From: Siphonodentalium dalli
Lineage: Eukaryota > Mollusca > Scaphopoda > Gadilida > Siphonodentaliidae
Assembly: GCA_032622095.1 (NCBI GenBank)
Contig: CP136065.1
Span: forward strand, 150,977,577 to 151,041,576
DNA length: 64,000 nucleotides
Direction of reading: 5' to 3'
The notes under the pieces were generated by a model that saw nothing but the letters and a program-made list of their open reading frames with translations, made no database searches and had not been told where the DNA came from. A program made the position numbers and the translations under genes. This document shows positions 4,283 to 58,453 of this stretch, piece after piece. Position 1 is the stretch's first letter. Every line of letters starts with the position of its first letter.

Positions 4283-5515
4283 ATGGACACTACCTTTGCG
4301 TCCGATCTACCTGACTACGAGGAGGAACTGAAATCGCGAGCAACGTTTTATTGCAACCAGCGATATACTTCAAAGATGCAACCAGTTGATAACGTCGAGG
4401 GCGCGAGCGATTTGATTAGCAAGCCATTTCAACGGAAATCCAGCCTACATAGAACACATTCAGCACAATCGAACCCAAGTGCATCGTCGACCATGATACA
4501 GGGCCCCACAGGACCAATACGACAGTATTCAGCCAAGTCGACACGTGTACACAAGTTAAATCCAAAAGCCTCTTCGACGATGATGGACGCTAGTCTCTTT
4601 TGTGAAATTAACAAATCGCACGACATGACAACCACGAACGACCAGAAAACAGTCACTGCCAACACGTGTTTTCCCATGTTCGAAGATTCTCTTTCAATGG
4701 GGAGTATTCTCACATGGACTCTAAACGATGACGGCGATGGTAGTGACGATAACGACCCTGCCTCAGGCTGTCTCGCACATAGTACGCCAAATCGGAATCG
4801 CGCATTCTCAGACAGCAGGGCCAGGAGACGTCTTGTGCTTCACGATCGGATGACCTCGATGCTCGAGGAGTTATCTCAAGAGGACATAAGTTTCCGTAGT
4901 GACGTCACGTTCGAGGAAGCAGAACAAGTCGACGGTGGTATTGAGCCCGTGTGCGATTTCGGCGTGAGTGGCGTTGACGTTAATAAGTCTGCATCAGCTT
5001 CGGAGAACGATCGAATCGTGTATGGTGCCGACGACGCATCTGTGGTTCTTAACAATTTTGAATACAGCGACGTTTCATTCGACGACAGTTGCGAGGACGA
5101 GCAGTTTCTAACGAACTCTTTGCAGAATTCCCACATTGAAACGTGTGTTAAGCATCAGATTCAGCAGAAAGTTCTCGCGGTGACATCAGAATCTTCTGTG
5201 ACAAAAGTGTCAGACATGAGTTCGTGGGACTCCTTGCTTTCTGGGAGTCAGATTTTACCTGCAGCCTCCAAACCTACGAAGTCAGCAATGAAGAAGAAAC
5301 ATTCAATGAGACGTCTTCTGTTAGAGAAACAATTCCAGTGCTCCAACAAATTCGGCAATTCCAAACAATCCTTTAATGGTGTTGATCGTGACTCTTTCCA
5401 TGACATTGTGATCAGTCGTGTTCCCAGCAAAGTTCTTGAACATTCTTACAGAAAGCATTCGAAAACTTCAACACTGAAAAAAATCAAGTCATTGTGTAAA
5501 GCTTTTGTACGTTAA
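4283..5515 (+). CDS. Unrecognised disordered protein, family copy 1 (410 aa)
   Basis: I do not recognise this family. It is the longest intact ORF in the window and shares long identical stretches with the copies at 24411 and 39946, in one frame from ATG to stop, which supports a real gene. Seen in order: a conserved N-terminus (DLPDYEEELKSRA, residues 9-21), two internal repeats of the form NPxASSTM (about residues 65 and 94), SMGSILTWTLNDDGD, an acidic D-rich run, HSTPNRNRAFSDS followed by a basic ARRR, FRSDVTF, SSWDSLLSGSQILP, and a Lys/Arg-rich C-terminus ending KALCK-like before the stop. There is no signal peptide, membrane segment, zinc-binding pattern or enzyme motif. Ser/Asp/Thr richness suggests an intrinsically disordered regulatory protein, nuclear or cytosolic. 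The ATG is chosen because the homology starts there and all three copies share it. The gene is intronless, with a TATA promoter and AATAAA about 80 nt after the stop. Confidence 0.85.
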   Translation: MDTTFASDLPDYEEELKSRATFYCNQRYTSKMQPVDNVEGASDLISKPFQRKSSLHRTHSAQSNPSASSTMIQGPTGPIRQYSAKSTRVHKLNPKASSTMMDASLFCEINKSHDMTTTNDQKTVTANTCFPMFEDSLSMGSILTWTLNDDGDGSDDNDPASGCLAHSTPNRNRAFSDSRARRRLVLHDRMTSMLEELSQEDISFRSDVTFEEAEQVDGGIEPVCDFGVSGVDVNKSASASENDRIVYGADDASVVLNNFEYSDVSFDDSCEDEQFLTNSLQNSHIETCVKHQIQQKVLAVTSESSVTKVSDMSSWDSLLSGSQILPAASKPTKSAMKKKHSMRRLLLEKQFQCSNKFGNSKQSFNGVDRDSFHDIVISRVPSKVLEHSYRKHSKTSTLKKIKSLCKAFVR

Positions 5516-5595
5516 TATTGTGTTTATTATGTTTTGATTTTTTTTTCTGTTACTTTTTTATATATAGTGCTAATCATGTTATGTTATAATTATGA

Positions 5596-5601
5596 AATAA
5601 A
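5596..5601 (+). terminator. Poly(A) signal of gene copy 1
   Basis: AATAAA lies inside ATGAAATAAATAACTTGAAT, a block also found after copies 2 (25725) and 3 (38656, - strand). This conservation supports a short 3' UTR of about 100 nt. Confidence 0.7.
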
Positions 5602-5699
5602 TAACTTGAATCGATATTAATGAGTTATCGTGTGACTCCACATCACAAACTCCTTATTTGACATAAAACTAATATTATTTGTATATACGTTTTATATAT

Positions 5700-5939
5700 A
5701 GAACAAGTGCACCGCTGGGCGGAGGTAACGCCCCCGACTGTACAATCATAGAAACTTTCTGGTTAAGCGCTATACAAATGCCACATGTTGTTCTATATTA
5801 GCTTCAAATTAGGTCTGGTGCCACAAAAATAGAAGGAAAACAGAATTTTCTATAAAACAAAAATGAATTTTTTAAGTCGAAAAAGGGTCATAACTCTCAC
5901 AAAAATTATCCGATTGAACCGAAATTTTACCTTGACCGG
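5700..5939. other. Intergenic, degenerate repeat
   Basis: It holds a diverged unit of the following Helentron-like repeat (GGGTCATAACTCTCACAAAAAT at about 5885, close to later GGGGCGTAACTCTGG units). No gene is seen. Confidence 0.4.
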
Positions 5940-6455
5940 GTTTTGCAAATAAACAATCCAAAATCAAGTTATCATCTGGAAACCAAAAAAAGTAGCAGAA
6001 AACCTGAATTTTCTAAGTCCAAAAAGGGGCGTAACTCTGGAAAAAATGGGCGGACGAAACCACGGCTATGGGGAAATCTTGTCCCCCCCCCCCCGGCTGG
6101 TCTATTGGCATACCAAAGATCAACTGAATTGAATTAGCGAAACCAAAGTTATGAGTTGAAACGTTCGTATGCCACAGAAAACTGAATTTTCTAAGTCCAA
6201 AAGGGGCGTAACTCTGGAAAAAATGGGCGGACGAAACCGCAGTTATGGGGAAATCTTGCCCCCCCCCCCCCCGGCTGGTATATTAGCATACCAAAGATCA
6301 ACTGAATTGAGTTAGTGAAACCAAAGTTATGAGTTGAAACGTTCGTACGGACGGAAGGACGGAAGGACGGACGGACGGACGGACGGACGGACGGACGGAC
6401 GGACTGAGGGCTCCAGTATATACCCCCAAATCTCCATCGGAGATCGGGGGCATAA
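5940..6455 (+). mobile_element. Helentron-like element with tandem core and ACGG microsatellite
   Basis: Two core units of about 175 bp (around 6000 and 6180), each with GGGGCGTAACTCTGG, a C-run followed by GGCTGGT, and ATACCAAAGATCAACTGAAT, precede an ACGG tetranucleotide array (6347-6405). A strong hairpin, ATCTCC-atc-GGAGAT with C-run and G-run flanks (6423-6450), closes the unit. Core repeats, tetranucleotide array and terminal hairpin match the general design of microsatellite-associated elements known from bivalves. The ORF on the - strand through the ACGG array (PSVRPSVR) is a repeat artefact. Confidence 0.65.
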
Positions 6456-46262: not shown

Positions 46263-46722
46263 TTGTTATTCAGAAACACTATGCGTATAGTTTGTTTATG
46301 CCACGATCTTTACAATGCGATGGATAAACACTTTTCCGTTCAAATTGTATGGAGAAAGTTTAATCCACTCTGCGAAGTTTAATCAACAGCAGGCACGTGT
46401 AATCAACAGGTGTTGATTAAATGTAAAATCTAAACTGATGGCTTTATATATATAATAAGATAGGCGATCGTGGTATAAAATAATTTTTACTCTGTACGTG
46501 GTAAAAACAAAGAGCCTATGTTTCATATTTGTACACACAATTCAAAGTTCAGTCTCCTCGCTAAGCTGATTTGACAGCTGCCATCACGTGCACAGAATGT
46601 ATTAAATCATTCAAAAAATGTATTCAAGACTTGTCGGTTACAATTTATTCTGATTTGATCTATAGCCAGTTTCCAAATGAATATTGACAGTTCAGTTTCT
46701 CCAAATAATGCAGACAACAGTC
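46263..46722. repeat. Segmental block, direct copy at 59410-59947
   Basis: CCACGATCTTTACAATGCGA, GGAGAAAGTTTAATCCACTC, AATAATTTTTACTCTGTACG and GACAACAGTCTTAA occur in the same order at 59420-59950. The second copy has an additional ~95-base tandem duplication at 59500-59590. Confidence 0.85.
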
Positions 46723-46726
46723 TTAA

Positions 46727-47220
46727 AGGTACGGTTGGCCTTGGCGCTGGGTATCCTGTGAAAATATTTCCACCAGTCAAAAACCGCCACAAACAGAAAG
46801 AACAACAAAATGTAGACAGACTTTGTCCGTATACAAATAAGAAATATCGCAGAAACAGTATGTTATTGTCATATTTTTGACCATTGTTATGTAAACAAAA
46901 GCATAAAAAGTAACTTTTCTGGTGTTTGTTTATATTATGATGGTAAACATAAAGAGCGTTCTTTGTGGGTGAATTCCTGATATGGAACGAATAAAGAGCG
47001 TTTATGCCATTTGTGTGTGATTAGCCAGCAGCATTGTGTTGTCTTCTGTAACACAATCAGGCTCTTGCTTAGGTAAAATATAGTAAATCTTCATGATAAC
47101 ATGCTGTTTACGCGATGGTCATGGCATATATGAACGAAACTGTATGCGTTTTAATGTTTTTCTGTTTACGGTGATTGGAACAAATATGAATATTTTCGAC
47201 AACTAAGGCCTCACGTGCCT
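46727..47220. mobile_element. piggyBac-type MITE, copy A (494 bp)
   Basis: Begins AGGTACGGTTGGCCTT and ends AAGGCCTCACGTGCCT (imperfect inverted ends), flanked by TTAA at 46723-46726 and 47221-47224. The paralogous site in the second copy of the surrounding block (59948-59951, CAGTCTTAAATTAAAAATG) lacks the insert and has one TTAA, which defines the ends exactly. Carries two AAAGAGCGTT boxes inside. The short Lys/Arg-rich frame (PVKNRHKQKEQQ) is probably not a gene. Confidence 0.9.
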
Positions 47221-48652: not shown

Positions 48653-50041
48653 TTAAGGCCTATGGGAAGCAGTGAAAATAAGTGACAAGAAAATTGACAC
48701 CAAGTGCCAATACATGCAATATTGTGGCAAAATTCAACAAGTTTAGGTTCCTGTTATTTCTACAGGAGTCATTGACAATGAAACAGCATCAAACTTACCA
48801 CAAAAGTCTGTTACAGGTAGTTTGAACTCTGAAGTTCCTCCAAAATATGTAGAAAGACAACACAATTCCTATGTTCAGGTAACAGGAAATTGAACATCAA
48901 AACTGAAAATAAACACCATGGTCATAAACTCCATTATTCAAAGCAGGACAAGCACTTGGTGTATTACATGATCAATAATAAGAAAATATTGCAAATTGGC
49001 TTCAAACATTTGTTTTGATTGACTAACTATCTGCTGACTGGAACTACATTAGCAGTGATATGTATGGAAGACAAAATCTTCATAAGTTCGGGAAGTACAA
49101 CTTCACAAATAACAATTGAAATTCAATACAGTCTTGCATGTGCTCAACTGAATATGTGTAAGACAGCATAATTGATCGTAAAAGGTCCTTGAAAAGGCCC
49201 ACAGCATTAAATGAATTAATAACAGGTGTCAAGGGGCAACACCATTGATGTCAGACAAAAAAAATTTGGCAAAAATATAGTACTAGAAGTGAAACAACAT
49301 GACTAGTTAGCAGAACAATTGAAAAGGTATGAACATAAAGCAAAGATATGAGAACCTGTATACTCACCACACTTGGCTCCGAAGGCTCAAGTAACTATCG
49401 GTCAGCAAAATCAGTCAAGGTAATATATATATGTAAAGGATGATAAATCAGCAAACTGTGGATGCATCGGGTAAAAATACAGGTAATATATATTTGCAGC
49501 ATGAAATACTCTACCACATCTGAAAGAAAACAAATGGATCTAACATTACTTGATCAGGTTGTGAAATAAAATGAGATGTCGAAACATACCTATGATCTAT
49601 TTCTAATGTTTGCTCAATTGATTTAAAATGTGTACATTTTTAGATCAGGCTACAACTAAAATTTATCTTACGTTATTGCAGTACTGTCGTTAACAGGTGT
49701 GTTTATATTATTACAAATATTAAAGAGATATGCTTTTGGTGTAAATAGTGATATTGAACATTAAATAAAATCAATCATCAAAATTGGCAACGGCATGATG
49801 TGGCAACATGTGGAATCTATGGGACATGGGATATTTTCTTAATTTCAAGGGGTAATAAACTGAACTACATGGACAAATATCTTACATATATTGGAAGACA
49901 GATATTGGAAACAAGACATGTTTAATTAGTTACTAACTGACTATCAAAGTTTCTATTGTACCGTAGCATGCTAGTATACAAGACAAATTGTTGCAATCAT
50001 AGATAGACTGTTCATGTTCATTTGAATGCATCTGATCTTAC
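48653..50041 (-). other. 3' part of the decayed transposon: introns/UTR, no recognisable domain
   Basis: AT-rich sequence without long frames, downstream (on the - strand) of the Tudor-like exon. A good splice donor (AAAG|GTAAGA) ends that exon at 50042, so at least one more exon should lie here or the sequence is all intron/UTR. No terminal inverted repeat could be confirmed. Confidence 0.4.
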
Positions 50042-50467
50042 CTTTATATATCAGTAAAACGACAGAGCCAGATGTGTAATCATCAACAATGTGGTCTACT
50101 TCATAGGTAATGTCTTCATCATAATGAACGGTGTAGATCGCACCATCTCGCCCATCAGTACCGTCAACCAGGGAAGTAACTCTACCAGTATACCACTTTG
50201 ACGATCCAGAATCATCCACCCACTCATGTGATATCTGTCTATTGAGAAATCGCTGTATTCGTTGACGGCCTGAAGAAGTGATGACTGATGGTACTGTTGA
50301 TGTTGAAGCTTGGACGGTGAGAATACCGTGAGATCAGATGTTGGAATAATTGTTGGCTGCACTGAAGATGAAGCTGTTGTGGATAATGGCGAACTCACAT
50401 TGCTGGCTGTGATTTTCTTTCTTGTTTTTTTTTGTGAAACAGATTGTGTTGTCTTGTGCTCCTCAAA
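50042..50467 (-). pseudogene. Tudor-like exon of the transposon ORF2
   Basis: Bounded by a 3' splice site (TTATTTCAG| at 50468) and a 5' splice site (|GTAAGA at 50041). The first half is Ser/Thr/Lys-rich linker. The second half reads KWYTGRV, then DGAIYTVHYDEDITYEVDHI and VDDYTSGSVVLL: a W-Y-x-G-x-V strand, Y-x-V-x-Y and an acidic strand as in small Tudor/chromo-like barrels that bind modified histone or arginine tails. The two halves are in different frames, so at least one indel has occurred near 50300-50350. In an active element this domain could direct the protein to chromatin; that is inference. Confidence 0.55.
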
Positions 50468-50759
50468 CTGAAATAAATGAAGGTAAAATTATACCGCTTG
50501 TTTCAGATGATATAAATTTACATGTATATGTCCAGGCAAGCTGGAATACTTTAAAATGCTAAGTTAACATATACCCGATAGCTGTTAAATTGTTTATGCC
50601 ATTTTTCAAGATGGATGTGTTTTAAGGTATGCCACGGGAGGTGTTCCAAATTTGGGCTCTATTGAACAGATGGGTGTGATATTACAAACATGCCAATAAA
50701 GTCACAAATAAACATACACACAGCCAAACACTTTGATTATATATAGATATATATATTAC

Positions 50760-51578
50760 CCAGACACCAGGCTCCCGAATTCCAGGAGATTGACCATATC
50801 TCGGAGATGCTAGTTCCGGAAGGATTATTTTATGGTAAAATGATGAAAGTTTCGGAACCATTTGATTGAGCCAAAACAATTCATCCTTCTGTATGTGCTC
50901 TATATGCAACTCATACGTATCAGTACGCCTTACAATGAAATCAAGCCAGGGAAGATTGAAAACATTCATTTGGCCTTGGATTTGATAACAAAAGTTATGT
51001 GTTCTTTTTAACCTGAATTCACCATTTATCAACTCTAAAGGAAAATTTTGAACTGATGAGCATGCCTCTTGAAAACTATGTTGCTTTATTTGCTTAATTT
51101 CCAACAGACCTTGACCTCTAGATTGACTGATTACCAAACCATCAGTACTTGCTGCTAAGAAAGGAAATTCAGGGCAAACACATAACCCCATGGACTCAAA
51201 CTTACATTGATCATCAATCAATCGACACTTGGCAATGTATTCTTTAACTGGTGATTTTTCTAGCCGTAGCCCTGTCCTAGTAATGCGATTCCCATGAAAT
51301 GTGGTGTAAAGAAGTCGCTTAACGAAGAGGTATATTTTTAGTGTGGGTTTTCGTTTTGATATCTCACCAAAGTTTGATGATGTCACTCTGATGCGTCTTT
51401 CCACTGCCCACAACCCAGAAGCAGATTGTTCTTTTGTAGATTTTTTAATCGCCTCAATAGATTCCGGTGTAATATTTATATGGTTCTTCAAGACATCTTT
51501 GCATTTGCTGGTTAGGTTATCTTGGCTAATGTCATCTGAGACTTCCAGTGACTCTGGTCCATATTCCAGTCTTGCCTG
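50760..51578 (-). pseudogene. YqaJ-like nuclease domain of transposon ORF2
   Basis: Open in one frame over about 270 codons directly after the in-frame stop at 51579. It shows the YqaJ / lambda-exonuclease fold signature: SGLWAVERRIRVTSSNFGEI (substrate-side helix), a GLRLE segment with Glu, LAASTDGLV with the catalytic Asp, and LLEIKQIK with the E-x-K pair. These residues appear intact. The exon ends GVW|GTAATA at 50759. YqaJ-type nucleases resect double-stranded ends in phage recombination; in animal genomes the domain is found fused to or next to Mutator-like transposases. Its role in transposition is not established. Confidence 0.7.
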
Positions 51579-53737
51579 TTAAGCATTTGCATCTTTAGTT
51601 GCCGCAATTTTTCTTTTTCTTCTCCATTCTTTTGCTTCAGGTTTATTCTGAATTCTGAGGCTTGTTTCTAGATGTTTCTCTCTCTGTTTGTATAATAAAT
51701 TAAAGTTTTGTCCTGCATCAGTTCCAAAACTCTTTTCCCAAGCTAATGACGCCCACAATGGTCCAAGATTTTGTCGCAGACCTGCTCCATAACACCTGGC
51801 ATGCCAAGAACCTCGATTTGTACGGTTAAAGATTTTACCACAATCAAAACGTGTTCGGATGAACATCCAATTTTCTGCAAGGTTTGTAGTGCTGTTCGCA
51901 ATCAGAGCAGTAGATTTCTGGGCCATTGTGTCAAGAATTTTCTGCAGGTCGTTCATGAGATCTTTATTTTGTAGGGCAGCATATCCATCACCTTCATCAT
52001 CTTCCATCTTGTCAACATTAACATCCAGATCTTTCCAGAAATTAACAACATCATCAATTTGCTGACACATATCATCATCAGGTGAATCAACAATAGTTGT
52101 GGACGAGGCTGAGACTTGATGAGTTTGTTCATAAATATCAGTAGAAAGTTGGGAGTCATGTGTGTGAGACAAGGAGGGTATATCAGAGGAAGGTGCTGCT
52201 ACAGGGTCATTAGAAAGTGGTACATTGACAGATGCAGATATTCTTTTCTGAGATTTTTTGAAACAGAAAGATGAACAGTGGGTATGGTCTCCAAAAACAT
52301 GTTTAGCAACATTGCGGATGTCTTTCCCAAGGCCTACGACATTTGACTGTCAGATTCTGATGAGACATGATATTGCTCAAACCATTTTTTTAAAGGTGTT
52401 TCTGACACTTGCCACCATTTTCATTCGCATTAACTTTGTCAAATTATTTTGACCCTTGTATGAAGGGTTGTCGGTGACTAAATTTTCCAATTTACCTCGC
52501 AAACATTTACAGCAATGATTTGCACACTCAAGTTTCTGTACTTTTGAACCCCACACAGGGACCTCTTCTTTGATGCGTGCAAACGTGCTGCTATCTCCAT
52601 CACCGACAAGATACTTAAATCTGACTCCATGCATTTGCTCCGCAGCCTTGAATCCTTCAACAACGATATCACTTTCCATAGCCTGACTCGATTTTGACCA
52701 ATTTCGATAACAAATCTGTTCTGGTGGTTGTAGGCCTTTTTTGTTTGGCTTTTGCACATATAGAGCAATTCTTGTTCCTGACACCCACATAGAGAAGTTT
52801 TTTAGTAGCCGCTCCAACAATGATGGCAACGCCTCCAGGAGCATTATATGAATGCTTGTGTGATCTTTTTGACCAACCACCATTACAAATTACAGTTATA
52901 TATGGCACACCATCTTCAATATGTATAACGCTCCTTGGCCAGATGTCTTTCCTCAATACCATTCTGCAGGATATCTTCGTGAAGAATTTCATGCCATTTG
53001 GTAGAAATAATGGTCTCTATCATGGAAAATGTTTTTTGAGATAGTCCAGGCATGTCCAAAACACCAAAGCGCTCATTCTGCTCCATTGCACCACCACCAG
53101 TAGCCATGTTGCCCCATACACTTCTCAAATTAATGTCATGTATCTTCTTCTTCTTCTCTGCACTATCAACCTCTACTTTGCTTGATGTTCGAAATAAAAA
53201 TCTTTCACCGCAACTGGTACATTTGTACTGAAGCACACTTGCTAGCCCATGTCTTTGAACCTCATCAGTCAATGTAAAAGGAGGGCCATAAGAAGAAATG
53301 TTTGATTCGTTGGAGCACTCCATCTGGTGTTGTGATATGATGTTAATGTGATCAGATAGTCTATTTAAATCTATGCACCTGTATCATGTGGGTGGCATTA
53401 CATCCGGTTTTTGTTTTATTGTAATGGTGATCGACTTATCTGACGGGGCCTCAGATTGCAGTATCTCAAACTCTCTACATGGGTCAAAGTGAACATTTGT
53501 GATTTGAGTCTCGGAGGAATCAGAAACATGTGGAGAAGTGGATACATGTAAATGTTCAAGAGAGATACTATCCGTGTTTCCAATGCCAAGCATTGGATTT
53601 GTTTTTCGTAATCTTTTCAGTGAATGCTTATTGAACACCCGTTGTATTTTACGTTTGCTACCCATGACTACAGGTACCAGGTATATCAAGATACAATAAT
53701 TACATGTACATATAATATTATACAACAATATTTTCAT
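51579..53737 (-). pseudogene. Mutator-like transposase domain of transposon ORF2, disrupted
   Basis: On the - strand: start MGSKRKIQRVFNKHSLKRLR (53665 area), in-frame TGA at 53384-53386, then CTSCGERFLF (a CxxC), INLRSVWGNMATGGGAMEQ, a frameshift at about 52920, NGGWSKRSHKHSYNAPGGVA, LLYVGVRNKNCSICAK, a second frameshift at about 52700, SDIVVEGFKAAEQMHGVRFK, YLVGDGDSSTFARI, KLECANHCCKCLRGKL, a third shift at about 52380, VVGLGKDIRNVAKHVFGDH, an acidic linker, ENWMFIRTRFDCGKIFNRTN and GSWHARCYGAGLRQNLGPLW, ending at TAA 51579. This is the full length of the animal Mutator-like transposase type often annotated next to YqaJ. The residue before GGWS, normally Asp, is Asn. With two nonsense codons and about three shifts it is inactive. 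Confidence 0.75.
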
Positions 53738-53829
53738 AATTTAATGCATAAATATAGTTTAATGACAGAAAAGCATAAATACTCACATCAGGCGACAGAG
53801 CAATCCATTAAACCTGATGTCTTGAGTAT

Positions 53830-54482
53830 TTAATTTGCAAGTCTGTGTACTAGTTTATACAGTCTAAGAAGCCATACTATTGAAAGATCTTTGCTAGGGT
53901 GCACTCCATCCGGTAATAAAGTTAAATCAATTTGTGTTGCACGCTGGCCTTGGACAATGGATGTATATACGAGATCATTATTCAATTTTGGAGTCGGCAA
54001 TATGTTCATTGTATGGATATCACTATTCAAGGTGTCAACAATCAAATTTATATTAGAATCGATGCTGGTTGTCAGAGGATATGTCCTGGAATTATTCCAA
54101 CAATCAGCTGACACTTTTTGGACATTCTAAAAAAAAAAACTTGTGCATGAGGTTTTGCAGCAACAATAGCTTCTTTGAATTTCAGCTGTTCAATAATTGA
54201 TTTTTCACAATTGACTGCACTGTCTTGTTGCAACGTGATATAACCATTTTGAAAGTTAGACAAATCACAAGTTCCTAACCAGATAACAACAATTGGAACA
54301 CATGTAGGCCTACAAGTTGCAATTGCAGTCAAAATTTTTGATTTCAAACCCTTATAACTATTTTTGAAACTTGGCTCCACTCTTATATATAAATTGAACA
54401 TTAATATTATCACTGTCAAGAACTTCCTGCTGAAGATATCGTCCTTTGCTGTCAGAAACTAGGAAAACTCGGCAGTTATTCA
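53830..54482 (-). pseudogene. SGNH-hydrolase-like ORF1 of the transposon, disrupted
   Basis: On the - strand: CRVFLVSDSKGRYLQQEVLD (block I with SDSKG, the usual place of the nucleophile Ser), then after a frameshift (about 54365) CVPIVVIWLGTCDLSNF (block III-like), HAQVFFF, a second shift in an A/T homopolymer (54127-54137), and finally LPDGVHPSKDLSIVWLLRL with the D-x-x-H dyad of block V. A TTTTAG acceptor precedes the first block at about 54492. SGNH folds are esterases; such a protein is known as an accessory ORF in some animal transposons. It is on the same strand and directly upstream of ORF2 (93 bases), which suggests a two-gene element. Substrate unknown. Confidence 0.65.
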
Positions 54483-54718
54483 GTTTCCAACACTAAAATT
54501 CACAGCTTCCTCAGATAACTTATTTCAAGATTTTCTCAACTTTCTTCCAGCCATTTAAATATGAACAAAATATAATAATGTAATAGCACAACAGAAGGAT
54601 GAATAATACACAAAAATGTGCCTCAATATTGTGACAAATGACGATTTTTGTTCAAATATTTTGAAACAACTGAAATATTTTTCAACTTGTCCACTTCACA
54701 CATAACTGTACTGACAAA

Positions 54719-55168
54719 GGTTACACTGGTGTAAATAATGTTCCGAGTGACATCTAGCGGATGCGGGAGGAATATATAGGAGAGAATAAAATAGACACTG
54801 GGCCCTGATTGGTCAATAGCCTTGTGTGCTTTTCACATAAAAAATCATCACACCTCTTCCCTATGATTTCCCATAGGTAAAATAACCATTGGCACAGGAA
54901 TTAACCCTTTGTAGTAAAGTTTGAATTTTTTGGTGTGGTCTAAAATATGACTGTATTTTTTTATGCGGTTATGACACTAGTTACGAAAACATAAGATTTA
55001 AAGGCGAATTCCCTGCTAGACAGACATGATTTTTTTGTGTAAAAAGTTTCACAAAATGTCAATTTTTCAGATTTAAAGAAAATTTTGGACCCAACATTTA
55101 TATTGCCAATACTATACACTAAAACGTTAGCACTGAGGCCTATGGAAAACATTTACACCAGTGTAACC
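54719..55168. mobile_element. Terminal repeat L of a composite element (450 bp)
   Basis: Starts GGTTACACTGGTGTAAAT and ends ATTTACACCAGTGTAACC... as perfect inverted ends (ending 55168). The ends themselves are palindromic (TTACACTGGTGTAA). Direct copy at 56071-56521 is about 98 percent identical by eye. Confidence 0.9.
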
Positions 55169-56070
55169 TAAAGGGAAAAAATAGCTTTTTATCATTTTTG
55201 TGTCCTGGGAGTCACTTTAAAGCATTTTAATGCATTTTACAGAGCCTGGTATTTCAGTCCAATGAATATCTCATGCTTGGTGTGGCTATTCTTGCTGCTG
55301 ATGACTTCTTTCACTTACATCAGCCAAAAAAATAGTAAGATTTTTCATAAAAAATGCCAATTTTTCAAGGTATTTTCAAAAAATTTCAAGGTGGTAATAG
55401 TCACATGATAATGCAAATGACCCATGACATGAGCATGTCAACGACACATATATCAATTGTTATAAGAACCTAATCTAACAAGTATTTTGGATTTTATAGC
55501 CAGTGATATACAGCTATATATCATAAAAGTGTGTCATTTCCACTGGTGGGTATGGTCATTTGAAGGTTAATAGCACTAAAACTTGGACACATTTAAGAAA
55601 ATGCTTCAGCAATTCAAAGAGAGCATATCTTTGTTCAACTAATTCAATATACACCCACATCCAGTTATCTTGGATCACCCTTGCAGACCTGAAAATGTCA
55701 TATTTTATTCTTCAATGTGCTGATAAAGTCATGCGCTTGATGCTCAGCTGATCAGATCTGGACTCAATGACCTCACATCACCAGAAGTTCTCTCATGGAA
55801 AGAATATTGTACAGTCTTCCATAGCTGATCCAAGTTTGCAACACCAGACCCCTAAAACTGAGTCAAAATGGGGCCTGAACATGACTGGTGGTGGAAAATT
55901 GTGCTTTTTTTATGAATAATTTGTTAAAGGGGGTGGGGTTAAATTGTGTGTGATAAATAAAGAACCACAGAAGTGATATTGTTTTTGAACACATTTTTTC
56001 CATTGATGGGCAATTCTGAAGAAATGTAGGGAGTTACAATTATTCCGCGAAAAAGCGGGCTATCGCTTTA
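55169..56070. other. Interior of composite element (about 900 bp)
   Basis: No recognisable ORF. Its edges, TAAAGGGAAAAAATAGC and GGGCTATCGCTTTA, are an imperfect inverted pair continuing the neighbouring ends. Confidence 0.6.
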
Positions 56071-56521
56071 GGTTACACTGGTGTAAATAAGGTTCCGAGT
56101 GACATCTAGCGGATGCGGGAGGAATATATAGGAGAGAATAAAATAGACACTGGGCCCTGATTGGTCAATAGCCTTGTGTGCTTTTCACATAAAAAAATCA
56201 TCACACCTCTTCCCTATGATTTCCCATAGGTAAAATAACCATTGGCACAGGAATTAACCCTTTGTAGTGAAGTTTGAATTTTTTGGTGTGGTCTAAAATA
56301 TGACTGTATTTTTTTATGCGGTTCTGACACTAGTTACGAAAACATAAGATTTAAAGGCGAATTCCCTGCTAGACAGACATGATTTTTTTGTGTAAAAAGT
56401 TTCCCAAAATGTCAATTTTTCAGATTTAAAGAAAATTTTGGACCCAACATTTATATTGCCAATACTATACACTAAAACGTTAGCACTGAGGCCTATGGAA
56501 AACATTTACACCAGTGTAACC
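56071..56521. mobile_element. Terminal repeat R of a composite element (451 bp)
   Basis: Direct repeat of 54719-55168 with the same inverted ends. CAAA follows at 56522-56525 and also precedes the left repeat at 54715-54718, so the whole 1.8-kb unit is flanked by a 4-base direct repeat. Confidence 0.85.
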
Positions 56522-56525
56522 CAAA

Positions 56526-57057
56526 CCGCGACCTGAGTTCCAATCTGTTCTAAGTACCGTTCTGGTACGAAACGTCCGTTGGGGTACCATTGGAACCGGA
56601 ATTAAATTATCTACAATATGGTCGCAACACCGAAGCGATATTTCGAACAATAACGCCGTAAAACAGGGTTATTTCTTGTCCGAAGTACGCGAAAGTGAGT
56701 TGTATTGAGAACTGACTTGTTCCATCTGCGTTCATGCTCAAAGGGGACTGAAACCATATTGGTCTATAACTCAAGTGGATGTAATTTCTTAGTTCCATCT
56801 TGTTCTATTTCAATATTGGCAATGTCTGAAGAATTCTACGTGTATGAGTCTTCTTCCTACATGGAACAATGTGGATCTAACATATGATCGAAGCCGATAC
56901 CTTATCATATTTAAACTATATAGATAGGTTTATATTAAACTACTCTAATTAACCTTCGCAGTGAAAAACAGACTATAATATTGTAATGGAGAAGATGAAT
57001 AACCACCCAGTTTCTTGGTGGCTATATTCCGTTTCCCAAACAAGGTACATATAAGTT
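56526..57057. other. No gene recognised
   Basis: Mixed sequence; short ORFs (56607-56798, 56705-56887) are unsupported. Confidence 0.35.
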
Positions 57058-57061
57058 TTAA

Positions 57062-57555
57062 AGGTACGGTTGGCCTTGGCGGTGGGTATCCTGTGAAAAT
57101 ATTTCCACCAGTCAAAAACCGCCACAAACAGAAAGAACAACAAAATGTAGACAGACTTTGTCCGTATACAAATAAGAAATATCGCAGAAACAGTATGTTA
57201 TTGTCATATTTTTGACCATTGTTATGTAAACAAAAGCATAAAAAGTAACTTTTCTGGTGTTTGTTTATATTATGATGGTAAACATAAAGAGCGTTCTTTG
57301 TGGGTGAATTCCTGATATGGAACGAATAAAGAGCGTTTATGCCATTTGTGTGTGATTAGCCAGCAGCATTGTGTTGTCTTCTGTAACACAATCAGGCTCT
57401 TGCTTAGGTAAAATATAGTAAATCTTCATGATAACATGCTGTTTACGCGATGGTCATGGCATATATGAACGAAACTGTATGCGTTTTAATGTTTTTCTGT
57501 TTACGGTGATTGGAACAAATATGAATATTTTCGACAACTAAGGCCTCACGTGCCT
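57062..57555. mobile_element. piggyBac-type MITE, copy B (494 bp)
   Basis: Same length and nearly every base equal to copy A at 46727; I see one clear difference (GGCGCTGGG against GGCGGTGGG). Flanked by TTAA at 57058-57061 and 57556-57559, in unrelated surroundings. Confidence 0.9.
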
Positions 57556-57826
57556 TTAATATGTTAGTATCCTATATTATTCATTCAATGACATAACTGG
57601 TTAATTATATTTGACATACATAGTGATTCACTGTGCATGTCTAACGTTCTGAATGTTTGCATTGGTTTGATATTTTATTTATTGTCATTCCCGCTTCTAT
57701 GACATACACCACTTTCATTTACAAATAATGCGCAGATGGTTAATGGTATGCGGAATCCACTCCACGAACAGTAGCACGTTAATACGGATTTGTATGGGGC
57801 GCCATCCCTGCAAATATTCGTTTTCG

Positions 57827-58453
57827 GAGATATCTCCTCGTTATTCGGAGATATCTCCTCGGTTTCGAGGAGATATTTCCTTGGAATTGCAATTCCTAGC
57901 AGATATCTGCTTTGGAATATGGTCCATTATGGAGATATCTCCTTGGATCCAAGGAGACATCTGCTTGGATTATGGAGATATCTCCTTGGATCCTAGGAGC
58001 TATCTCCTCGCAACTACGAGATATCTGCTTGAAATATTTCCAACGAGATATCTCCTTGAAACCGAGGAGATATCTCCATAATCCAAGCAGATATCTGCTC
58101 TGATTATGGAGATATCTCATTGAAATAGTTTTCAACGAGATACCTCCTTGGACCCAAGGAGATATCTCCATATTCCAAGCAGATATCTCCTTGAAAATAT
58201 TCCAAGCAGATATCTGTTTGGATTATGGAGATATCTCCTTGGAAAACCGCGGCCATGAAATATTAATGATTTCTCCACAGTACATATATCTATGATCGAA
58301 ATACATCCAAGCAGATATCTGCTCGGAATATGGAGATATTTCCTTGAAATATTTTTCAAGCAGATATATCCATAATCCGAGCAGATATCTGCTTGAATCC
58401 AAGGAGATATCTCCTTGAATATATTTCAAGGAGATATCTCCATAATGCGAGCA
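57827..58453. repeat. Array of GATATC-centred palindromes
   Basis: About 18 exact GATATC sites, plus six one-base variants, in about 625 bases, every 20-45 bases. Each is the centre of GGAGATATCTCC or AGCAGATATCTGCT, and spacers include the palindromes TTGGATCCAA and TTGAAATATTTCAA-like runs. Either strand reads alike, so frames stay open on both strands (ISPRYL, GDISL repeats); these are not genes. Confidence 0.9.

Follow-up and report, generated by a model that had tools for sequence, protein, structure and literature searches.

A broken KolobokE-type DNA transposon of the scaphopod Siphonodentalium dalli with a candidate SGNH hydrolase gene and a Tudor-like exon

Introduction

The subject of this work is a DNA transposon of the scaphopod mollusc Siphonodentalium dalli, found in a window (the whole stretch of 64,000 nucleotides that was analysed; contig CP136065.1, here called C5, positions 150977577-151041576). 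The window holds one truncated, frame-broken copy, with its coding strand on the minus strand, which we read, with a probability of about 0.8, as the remnant of an autonomous cut-and-paste transposon of the Kolobok superfamily, KolobokE lineage, carrying two accessory parts: a gene for a protein resembling SGNH hydrolases (open reading frame 1, ORF1) and a Tudor-like exon at the end of the gene for the transposase and a YqaJ nuclease domain (ORF2). The element has terminal inverted repeats (TIRs), duplicates a TTAA target, holds two genes on the same strand and has moved recently, and the order of its parts is the same in diverged families of this genome (2.23 Gb in 9 contigs were searched). 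The superfamily and the lineage are known, and the two accessory parts recur across families in this genome.

A first-pass annotation, made from the letters of the window, had proposed one transposon at 48653-54500 composed of an SGNH hydrolase, a Mutator-like transposase, a YqaJ nuclease and a Tudor-like domain. Pfam matches, together with tblastn using the proteins of the full-length copy L013, place all four parts on the minus strand in the order proposed. The left edge was exact, 48653 being the first base of the TTAA and TIR, but the right end was set too early, as the element, aligned to other copies, spans 48653-54718. The 93 bases said to separate the two genes become 89 in the list of open reading frames, counted from the ORF1 stop to the open ORF2 frame; ORF2 of L013 has its first ATG 164 bases past the end of ORF1. 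The description of the element as decayed fits the window copy but not its family, which has young copies with open frames.

Full-Length Copies and Related Families

A DNA search of the genome with window positions 52000-53000 yielded 40 matches; leaving aside the window itself, 12 have 90-96% identity. For the alignment of copies, 10 kb around each of 16 places was used. Elsewhere in the genome there are 11 full-length copies of the window's family (family A), each 7425-7575 bp long and reaching the second inverted repeat. The TIR is about 41 bp in length; the two ends of copy L010 agree at 39/41 bases (TTAAGGCCTATGGGAAGCAGTG...). When the genome was scanned with 34 TIR bases, allowing up to 2 mismatches, 35 matches were obtained, versus 0 for the reversed pattern; with the 11 full-length copies sharing both ends, this is well outside what chance would give. 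Paired by place, the 35 comprise the 11 full-length pairs, a further pair spanning 1.3 kb (C3:92360034-92361347), the end in the window and 10 other single ends. Copy number is low, and four copies at different places (L010, L012, L013 and L014) share 99.88-99.97% identity along their 7575 bp; thus, family A moved recently.

With positions numbered from the 5' end of L013, ORF1 (238 amino acids, aa) occupies 1681-2397 and ORF2 begins at 2562, is interrupted by a predicted 287-base GT-AG intron (5484-5770) and ends with exon 2 at 6184. ORF1 is open, at 238 aa, in 8 of the 11 copies, ORF2 exon 1 in 5, and exon 2 runs in phase to its proper end in 8; all three frames are open together in four (L010-L013). 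Whether open or broken, ORF1, ORF2 and the Tudor-like exon lie between the same TIRs in 11/11 full-length copies, which bears out the proposal of a single four-part element bounded by common terminal repeats.

Family A was compared with families B (L022-L024; 43-bp TIR, about 7.75 kb), C (L045), D (L046-L048) and E (L049-L050). Transposase identity is 67.5% between A and B, 59.1% between A and D and 50.4% between A and C, and the SGNH-like proteins are 51.7% (A-B), 28.9% (A-C), 29.6% (A-E) and 32.8% (C-E) identical.

Target Site and Superfamily

TTAA is present at both ends in 11/11 full-length copies of family A, giving the termini TTAA-GG...CC-TTAA. The bases outside TTAA are not repeated in the 11 copies, except in L009, which has GCGC on either side because it lies within a palindrome. 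Fourteen pairs of flanks were joined at one TTAA and compared with the fetched sequence, which revealed one clean empty site, that of L015: its join corresponds to an uninterrupted stretch of L012 1063-1426 (345/364 bases, a single TTAA at the junction) and also to a repeat in its own flank. As these matches hold a single TTAA, the target duplication is TTAA. The joined flanks of L019 gave a gapped 76% match. In family B, two of three copies have TTAA at both ends, and L022 has TTGA on one side.

The transposase residues D261, C300, C303, H316, C318, D355/D357, C380, H383 and E600 are invariant in families A, B and D. Four of them (C300, C303, H316 and C318) form a CCHC finger, C380-A-N-H383 is a CxxH motif, and D261, D355/D357 and E600 are, by our own assignment, the putative acidic catalytic residues. 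Kolobok elements are characterised by TTAA duplication, 5'-RR...YY-3' termini and a C/DxxH motif, and KolobokE by a CCHC zinc finger after the first catalytic D (a finger common to KolobokP, D and 5) and by a downstream nuclease (PMC9587614). Because of its TTAA duplication, 5'-GG termini, CxxH motif, CCHC finger and nuclease, the element is assigned to the Kolobok superfamily, KolobokE lineage, and not to the Mutator-like elements (MULEs). What had been described as a Mutator-like transposase plus YqaJ is thus KolobokE, where such a nuclease fusion is already known: that part of the description holds, but Mutator is a Pfam name only.

The reading as a MULE/MuDR element is very improbable. Pfam does name PF20700 'Mutator-like transposase', with an E-value of 1.6e-83 for ORF2 exon 1 of L013, and the C/DxxH motif is common to MuDR and Kolobok (PMC9587614). 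Against it stand two KolobokE traits, the nuclease located downstream and the CCHC finger that follows the first D, and the TTAA duplication, on which the Mutator assignment was rejected. MULE/MuDR elements duplicate 8-11 bp of target; no such duplication was found in the flanks of 11/11 copies, and the empty site is TTAA only. The termini of piggyBac elements are CCY. Those found here are GG, and PF20700 is the single transposase among the Pfam matches of ORF2 exon 1, which does not place the element in piggyBac. The 5'-RR termini of Kolobok are likewise distinguished from those of piggyBac (PMC9587614).

The ORF2 Protein

ORF2 exon 1 of L013 encodes 974 aa and, besides PF20700, matches YqaJ (E 2e-9). 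In the window copy PF20700 is matched on two frame-broken pieces (E 4e-27 and 6.1e-20). The YqaJ domain is also present in families B and D, and its residues D844, E858 and K860 are invariant in A, B and D. The intron has the same donor (GTAATATA) and acceptor (TTTATTTCAG) in the window and in 11/11 full-length copies; in families B, C and D a donor GT follows the same Trp codon, and the acceptor is similar in B.

Tudor domains and others of the royal family are small barrels with an aromatic cage for methylated residues. Exon 2 is likened to them by an assignment that is weak by sequence, and the exons of families A and B are 62% identical as protein, with no alignment at DNA level. A search of solved structures by sequence gave neither an SGNH nor a Tudor relative with a convincing E-value.

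The ORF1 Protein

SGNH hydrolases are named for four blocks which carry, in order, Ser, Gly, Asn and His. In the four families with an SGNH-like protein (29-52% identical), SDSKG, the Gly-Ala of block II, GTCD and DGxHP (DG(V/I)HP) are invariant and correspond by position to SGNH blocks I, II, III and V; Ser34, Gly58 and Asp213/His216 are invariant, and Cys94 takes the place of the SGNH Asn. The Pfam GDSL profile is matched over most of its length by ORF1 of families A (E 0.014) and C (E 0.0032), both below the cut-off, and is not matched by ORF1 of L023 (B) or L049 (E). Compared with a profile of seven TesA-type thioesterases, the ORF1 profile scores 30.2 (probability 20.8%), versus a highest score of 18.5 among 100 column shuffles and of 16.1 among seven E. 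coli neighbour proteins used as single sequences. The alignment runs through blocks II and III and, without realignment, also matches at DG(V/I)HP. No convincing match to ORF1 came from NCBIfam or PHROGs. Judged by primary structure the SGNH assignment is weak; an SGNH fold is likely.

Recurrence across the Genome

Genome-wide searches with ORF1, the Tudor-like exon and PF20700 gave at least 151, 118 and 115 matches, of which 150, 118 and 115 were analysed. Scored were the best 150 of 520 candidates for ORF1, 150 of 164 for the Tudor-like exon and the best 114 of 668 for PF20700; all counts in this section are therefore lower bounds and refer to the matches listed. The PF20700 matches were divided by score and position into 68 of KolobokE type and 47 others. 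Among the 68, there are 22 with SGNH upstream (within 5 kb) and Tudor downstream (within 8 kb), 33 with Tudor only, 2 with SGNH only and 11 with neither. The 47 lower-scoring matches have neither beside them; one (C3:99014201) has a YqaJ match downstream and may belong to the KolobokE-type group. Random placement of the 150 SGNH matches put SGNH upstream of 0.005 of the 115 PF20700 matches on average (200 trials).

Merging the 68 with the matches of a second transposase query gave 79 loci, many of which are copies of the same families, counted separately and so not independent: 25 have both parts (SGNH within 6 kb, Tudor within 14 kb), 37 Tudor only, 2 SGNH only and 15 neither. A Tudor-like exon thus lies downstream of at least 62 and SGNH upstream of at least 27, versus 4 and 0 in an opposite-strand control. 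Nine YqaJ matches chosen for their nearness to these loci all follow a PF20700 match, and six of them precede a Tudor match.

A chance neighbourhood, in which an SGNH-bearing piece of a CR1/L2-type retrotransposon (its ORF1) happens to lie beside a KolobokE transposon, has next to no likelihood. SGNH or esterase frames are indeed known in CR1, L2, RTEX, long terminal repeat (LTR) and Penelope elements (PMC3905857, PMC5408684), but here ORF1 is inside the TIRs in all full-length copies, which led to the rejection of a CR1 fragment as its source, its spacing from the transposase is nearly fixed within families A and B, and the opposite-strand control for SGNH is 0/79.

Inspection of the DNA upstream of four loci without a listed SGNH match showed SGNH to be present in L049 and L050 (family E) and absent in L047/L046 and L048 (family D, with none within 4.5-6.1 kb upstream). 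Because family E holds unlisted SGNH genes, SGNH is under-counted genome-wide. The set of parts does recur, as had been predicted, in diverged families of this genome; the expectation that intact relatives keep ORF1 holds for the copies of family A, all of which have it, but not for sister family D, and ORF1 is not universal in KolobokE-type families. Family A is closer to D than it is to C, but it is with C that it has SGNH in common; the simplest reading, from identities alone, is a loss in D.

Among the 150 SGNH matches, 101 have no PF20700 or Tudor match beside them, and one lies within 12 kb of a YqaJ match. A group of 37, all without an adjacent PF20700 or Tudor match, is 33-45% identical to ORF1 (e.g. 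C9:113614485, C7:151872172 and C2:119190251), two of them 6.7 kb apart in tandem; this is perhaps another type of SGNH-carrying element. Viral contigs scanned with the SGNH and ORF2 alignments gave 13 and 33 pattern matches and no relative.

Two further observations concern the other domains. PF20700 frames of about 600 aa are repeated in the same orientation, with periods of about 4.5 or 6.2 kb and no SGNH or Tudor match beside them, at C2:178172508-178205115, C3:99313395-99323517, C6:79177920-79192543, C6:135958331-135968456 and C9:23151209-23164745, and resemble the tandem arrays described for KolobokP. At C7:18.87-23.97 Mb, at least 14 YqaJ matches lie within about 5 Mb, nine of them in 484-aa frames and with near-equal scores; a different YqaJ element may have been amplified locally.

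Selective Constraint on the Parts

Between families A and B, the proportions of non-synonymous and synonymous differences (pN/pS) are 0.33/0.66 for SGNH, 0.22/0.81 for the transposase, 0.17/0.83 for YqaJ and 0.34/0.77 for the Tudor-like exon, i.e., pN is lower than pS in every part; synonymous sites are saturated or close to it. At DNA level, the window and family B align only in parts of ORF1 and ORF2 and in none of the non-coding parts. Among young copies ORF2 exon 1 is constrained (non-synonymous to synonymous changes 9.5:12.5 in L009 and 10.5:13.5 in L011). The young-copy changes in ORF1, being mostly non-synonymous (4:1, 3:0, 1:1 and 0:0; 8:1 between L049 and L050), weigh against an SGNH protein maintained by the element. 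They are not decisive, because copies decay freely after insertion.

The SGNH gene and the Tudor-like exon might instead be passive cargo without a role, picked up by an ancestral element from the host or from a foreign source. This is unlikely, though it is the alternative that these young-copy changes favour, as do the existence of family D without SGNH, the location of most SGNH matches listed elsewhere in the genome and the fish Helitrons, which bear SGNH genes of uncertain role (PMC4021074). Cargo would not readily account for a gene order that recurs in families whose transposases are 50-68% identical, for catalytic-type residues invariant in four SGNH families, for window and family B alignments confined to the genes, with a Tudor-like exon conserved as protein, or for the position of that exon downstream at so many loci.

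The Window Copy and Its Surroundings

The features of the window copy are collected in Table 1. At 54718 the element is broken off, its alignment to L013 stopping at element position 1519 of 7575, so that about 1.5 kb is lacking at the 5' end, the second TIR with it, and another repeat starts. This repeat, of about 456 bp and beginning GGTTACACTGGTGTAAAT, has two copies 98.7% identical (54718-55172 and 56070-56525), the first adjoining the broken transposon end. At 46607-47020 and 56945-57355 there are minus-strand open frames of mostly the same sequence, a repeat flanking the region on both sides. The list of open reading frames also contains, at 57671-58222, short-period coding-like frames with GDIS/RYLL units, which are minisatellite-like.

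Table 1. Parts of the transposon copy, in window positions
Feature	Position	Strand	Evidence
TIR at the 3' element end, starting TTAA then GGCCTATGGG	48653..48693	.	L010 ends agree at 39/41 over 41 bp; pattern match with 1 mismatch at C5:151026229 (window 48653)
Non-coding 3' part	48694..50060	-	Aligned to full-length copies; L013 there without a coding-strand frame of 70 aa
ORF2 exon 2, Tudor-like barrel (putative), frame-broken	50061..50467	-	tblastn with L013 protein
Predicted intron GT...AG, phase 0, after PGIREPGVW	50468..50759	-	Donor and acceptor as in the text
ORF2 exon 1, transposase and nuclease, frame-broken	50760..53665	-	tblastn with L013 protein
YqaJ/lambda-exonuclease-like PD-(D/E)xK nuclease domain	50961..51410	-	PF09588 E 1.2e-7, residues 57-206 of ORF 50682-51578
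DDE transposase domain (Pfam PF20700 'Mutator') with CCHC finger and CxxH	52263..53332	-	PF20700 on broken pieces
ORF1, SGNH/GDSL-type hydrolase-like, frame-broken	53833..54554	-	tblastn with L013 protein; frames; conserved blocks; TesA profile match
Leftover piece of 5' non-coding region	54555..54718	-	L013 alignment

A Possible Mechanism

In the mechanism that we propose, the DDE transposase would excise the element and insert it at TTAA. The lambda-exonuclease-like domain would resect 5' ends (5'-3') at the donor break or at the element's own ends, favouring homologous repair, which can restore the donor copy, and the Tudor-like tail would tether the complex to modified histones and so pick targets. 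Resection and tethering are, on balance, probable, and 'cut-and-resect with targeting', as the first-pass annotation had put it, is a reasonable way to construe the parts. The SGNH protein could be an acyl- or acetyl-ester hydrolase or an acyl-binding accessory factor in localisation or assembly. This accessory role is a guess, modelled on the lipid-binding esterase of long interspersed nuclear elements (LINEs), for which a role in localisation or assembly has been proposed (PMC3905857). It is rather doubtful that a whole clade of animal Kolobok transposons carries such a four-part kit, in which the transposase is joined by a nuclease that resects 5' ends, a Tudor tail that reads histones to choose targets and an SGNH hydrolase aiding transposition.

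SGNH hydrolases are found in several unrelated classes of mobile elements, and their function there is not agreed; a compact, recently active cut-and-paste element that has an SGNH gene next to a defined transposase would make the question testable by gene deletion. If such a four-part kit exists, a DDE DNA transposon would have independently captured a kind of enzyme also taken by LINEs, LTR and Penelope elements and Helitrons, and SGNH hydrolases would serve a step common to very different mobile elements. Through a Tudor-like tail on the transposase, a DNA transposon would join the elements whose choice of target may depend on histone reading, and a built-in nuclease provides a case for the study of transposons that steer repair.

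Comparison with Known Systems

The portions of PMC9587614 used here name no SGNH gene or Tudor-like domain in KolobokE, unlike the element described here, and the words 'esterase', 'chromodomain', 'PHD' and 'hydrolase' appear nowhere in that paper. KolobokP and KolobokD, of the same superfamily, have accessory nucleases of other kinds, His-Me finger or DEDDh and not YqaJ, and KolobokP has long terminal direct repeats, which the present element does not (PMC9587614). In the open-access literature searched, with some papers judged by their listing, no description of an SGNH or Tudor-like part in Kolobok was found; Repbase Reports, which may hold such KolobokE entries, were outside this scope.

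ISL2EU elements have a target other than TTAA. Like the element described here, ISL2EU is a DNA transposon with a YqaJ exonuclease, but the latter is in a separate ORF and the transposase is of the PHIS kind, with helix-turn-helix and THAP domains (PMC4482050). SGNH proteins in mobile elements have been reported from LINEs, LTR and Penelope elements (PMC5408684, PMC3905857) and from fish Helitrons (PMC4021074). The LINEs of CR1/L2 type have an SGNH hydrolase in the first ORF, as here, but are retrotransposons rather than DDE DNA transposons (PMC3905857). The texim genes are, as here, SGNH genes on a DNA transposon, but that transposon is a rolling-circle element, the association is with fish, and the gene has several introns (PMC4021074).

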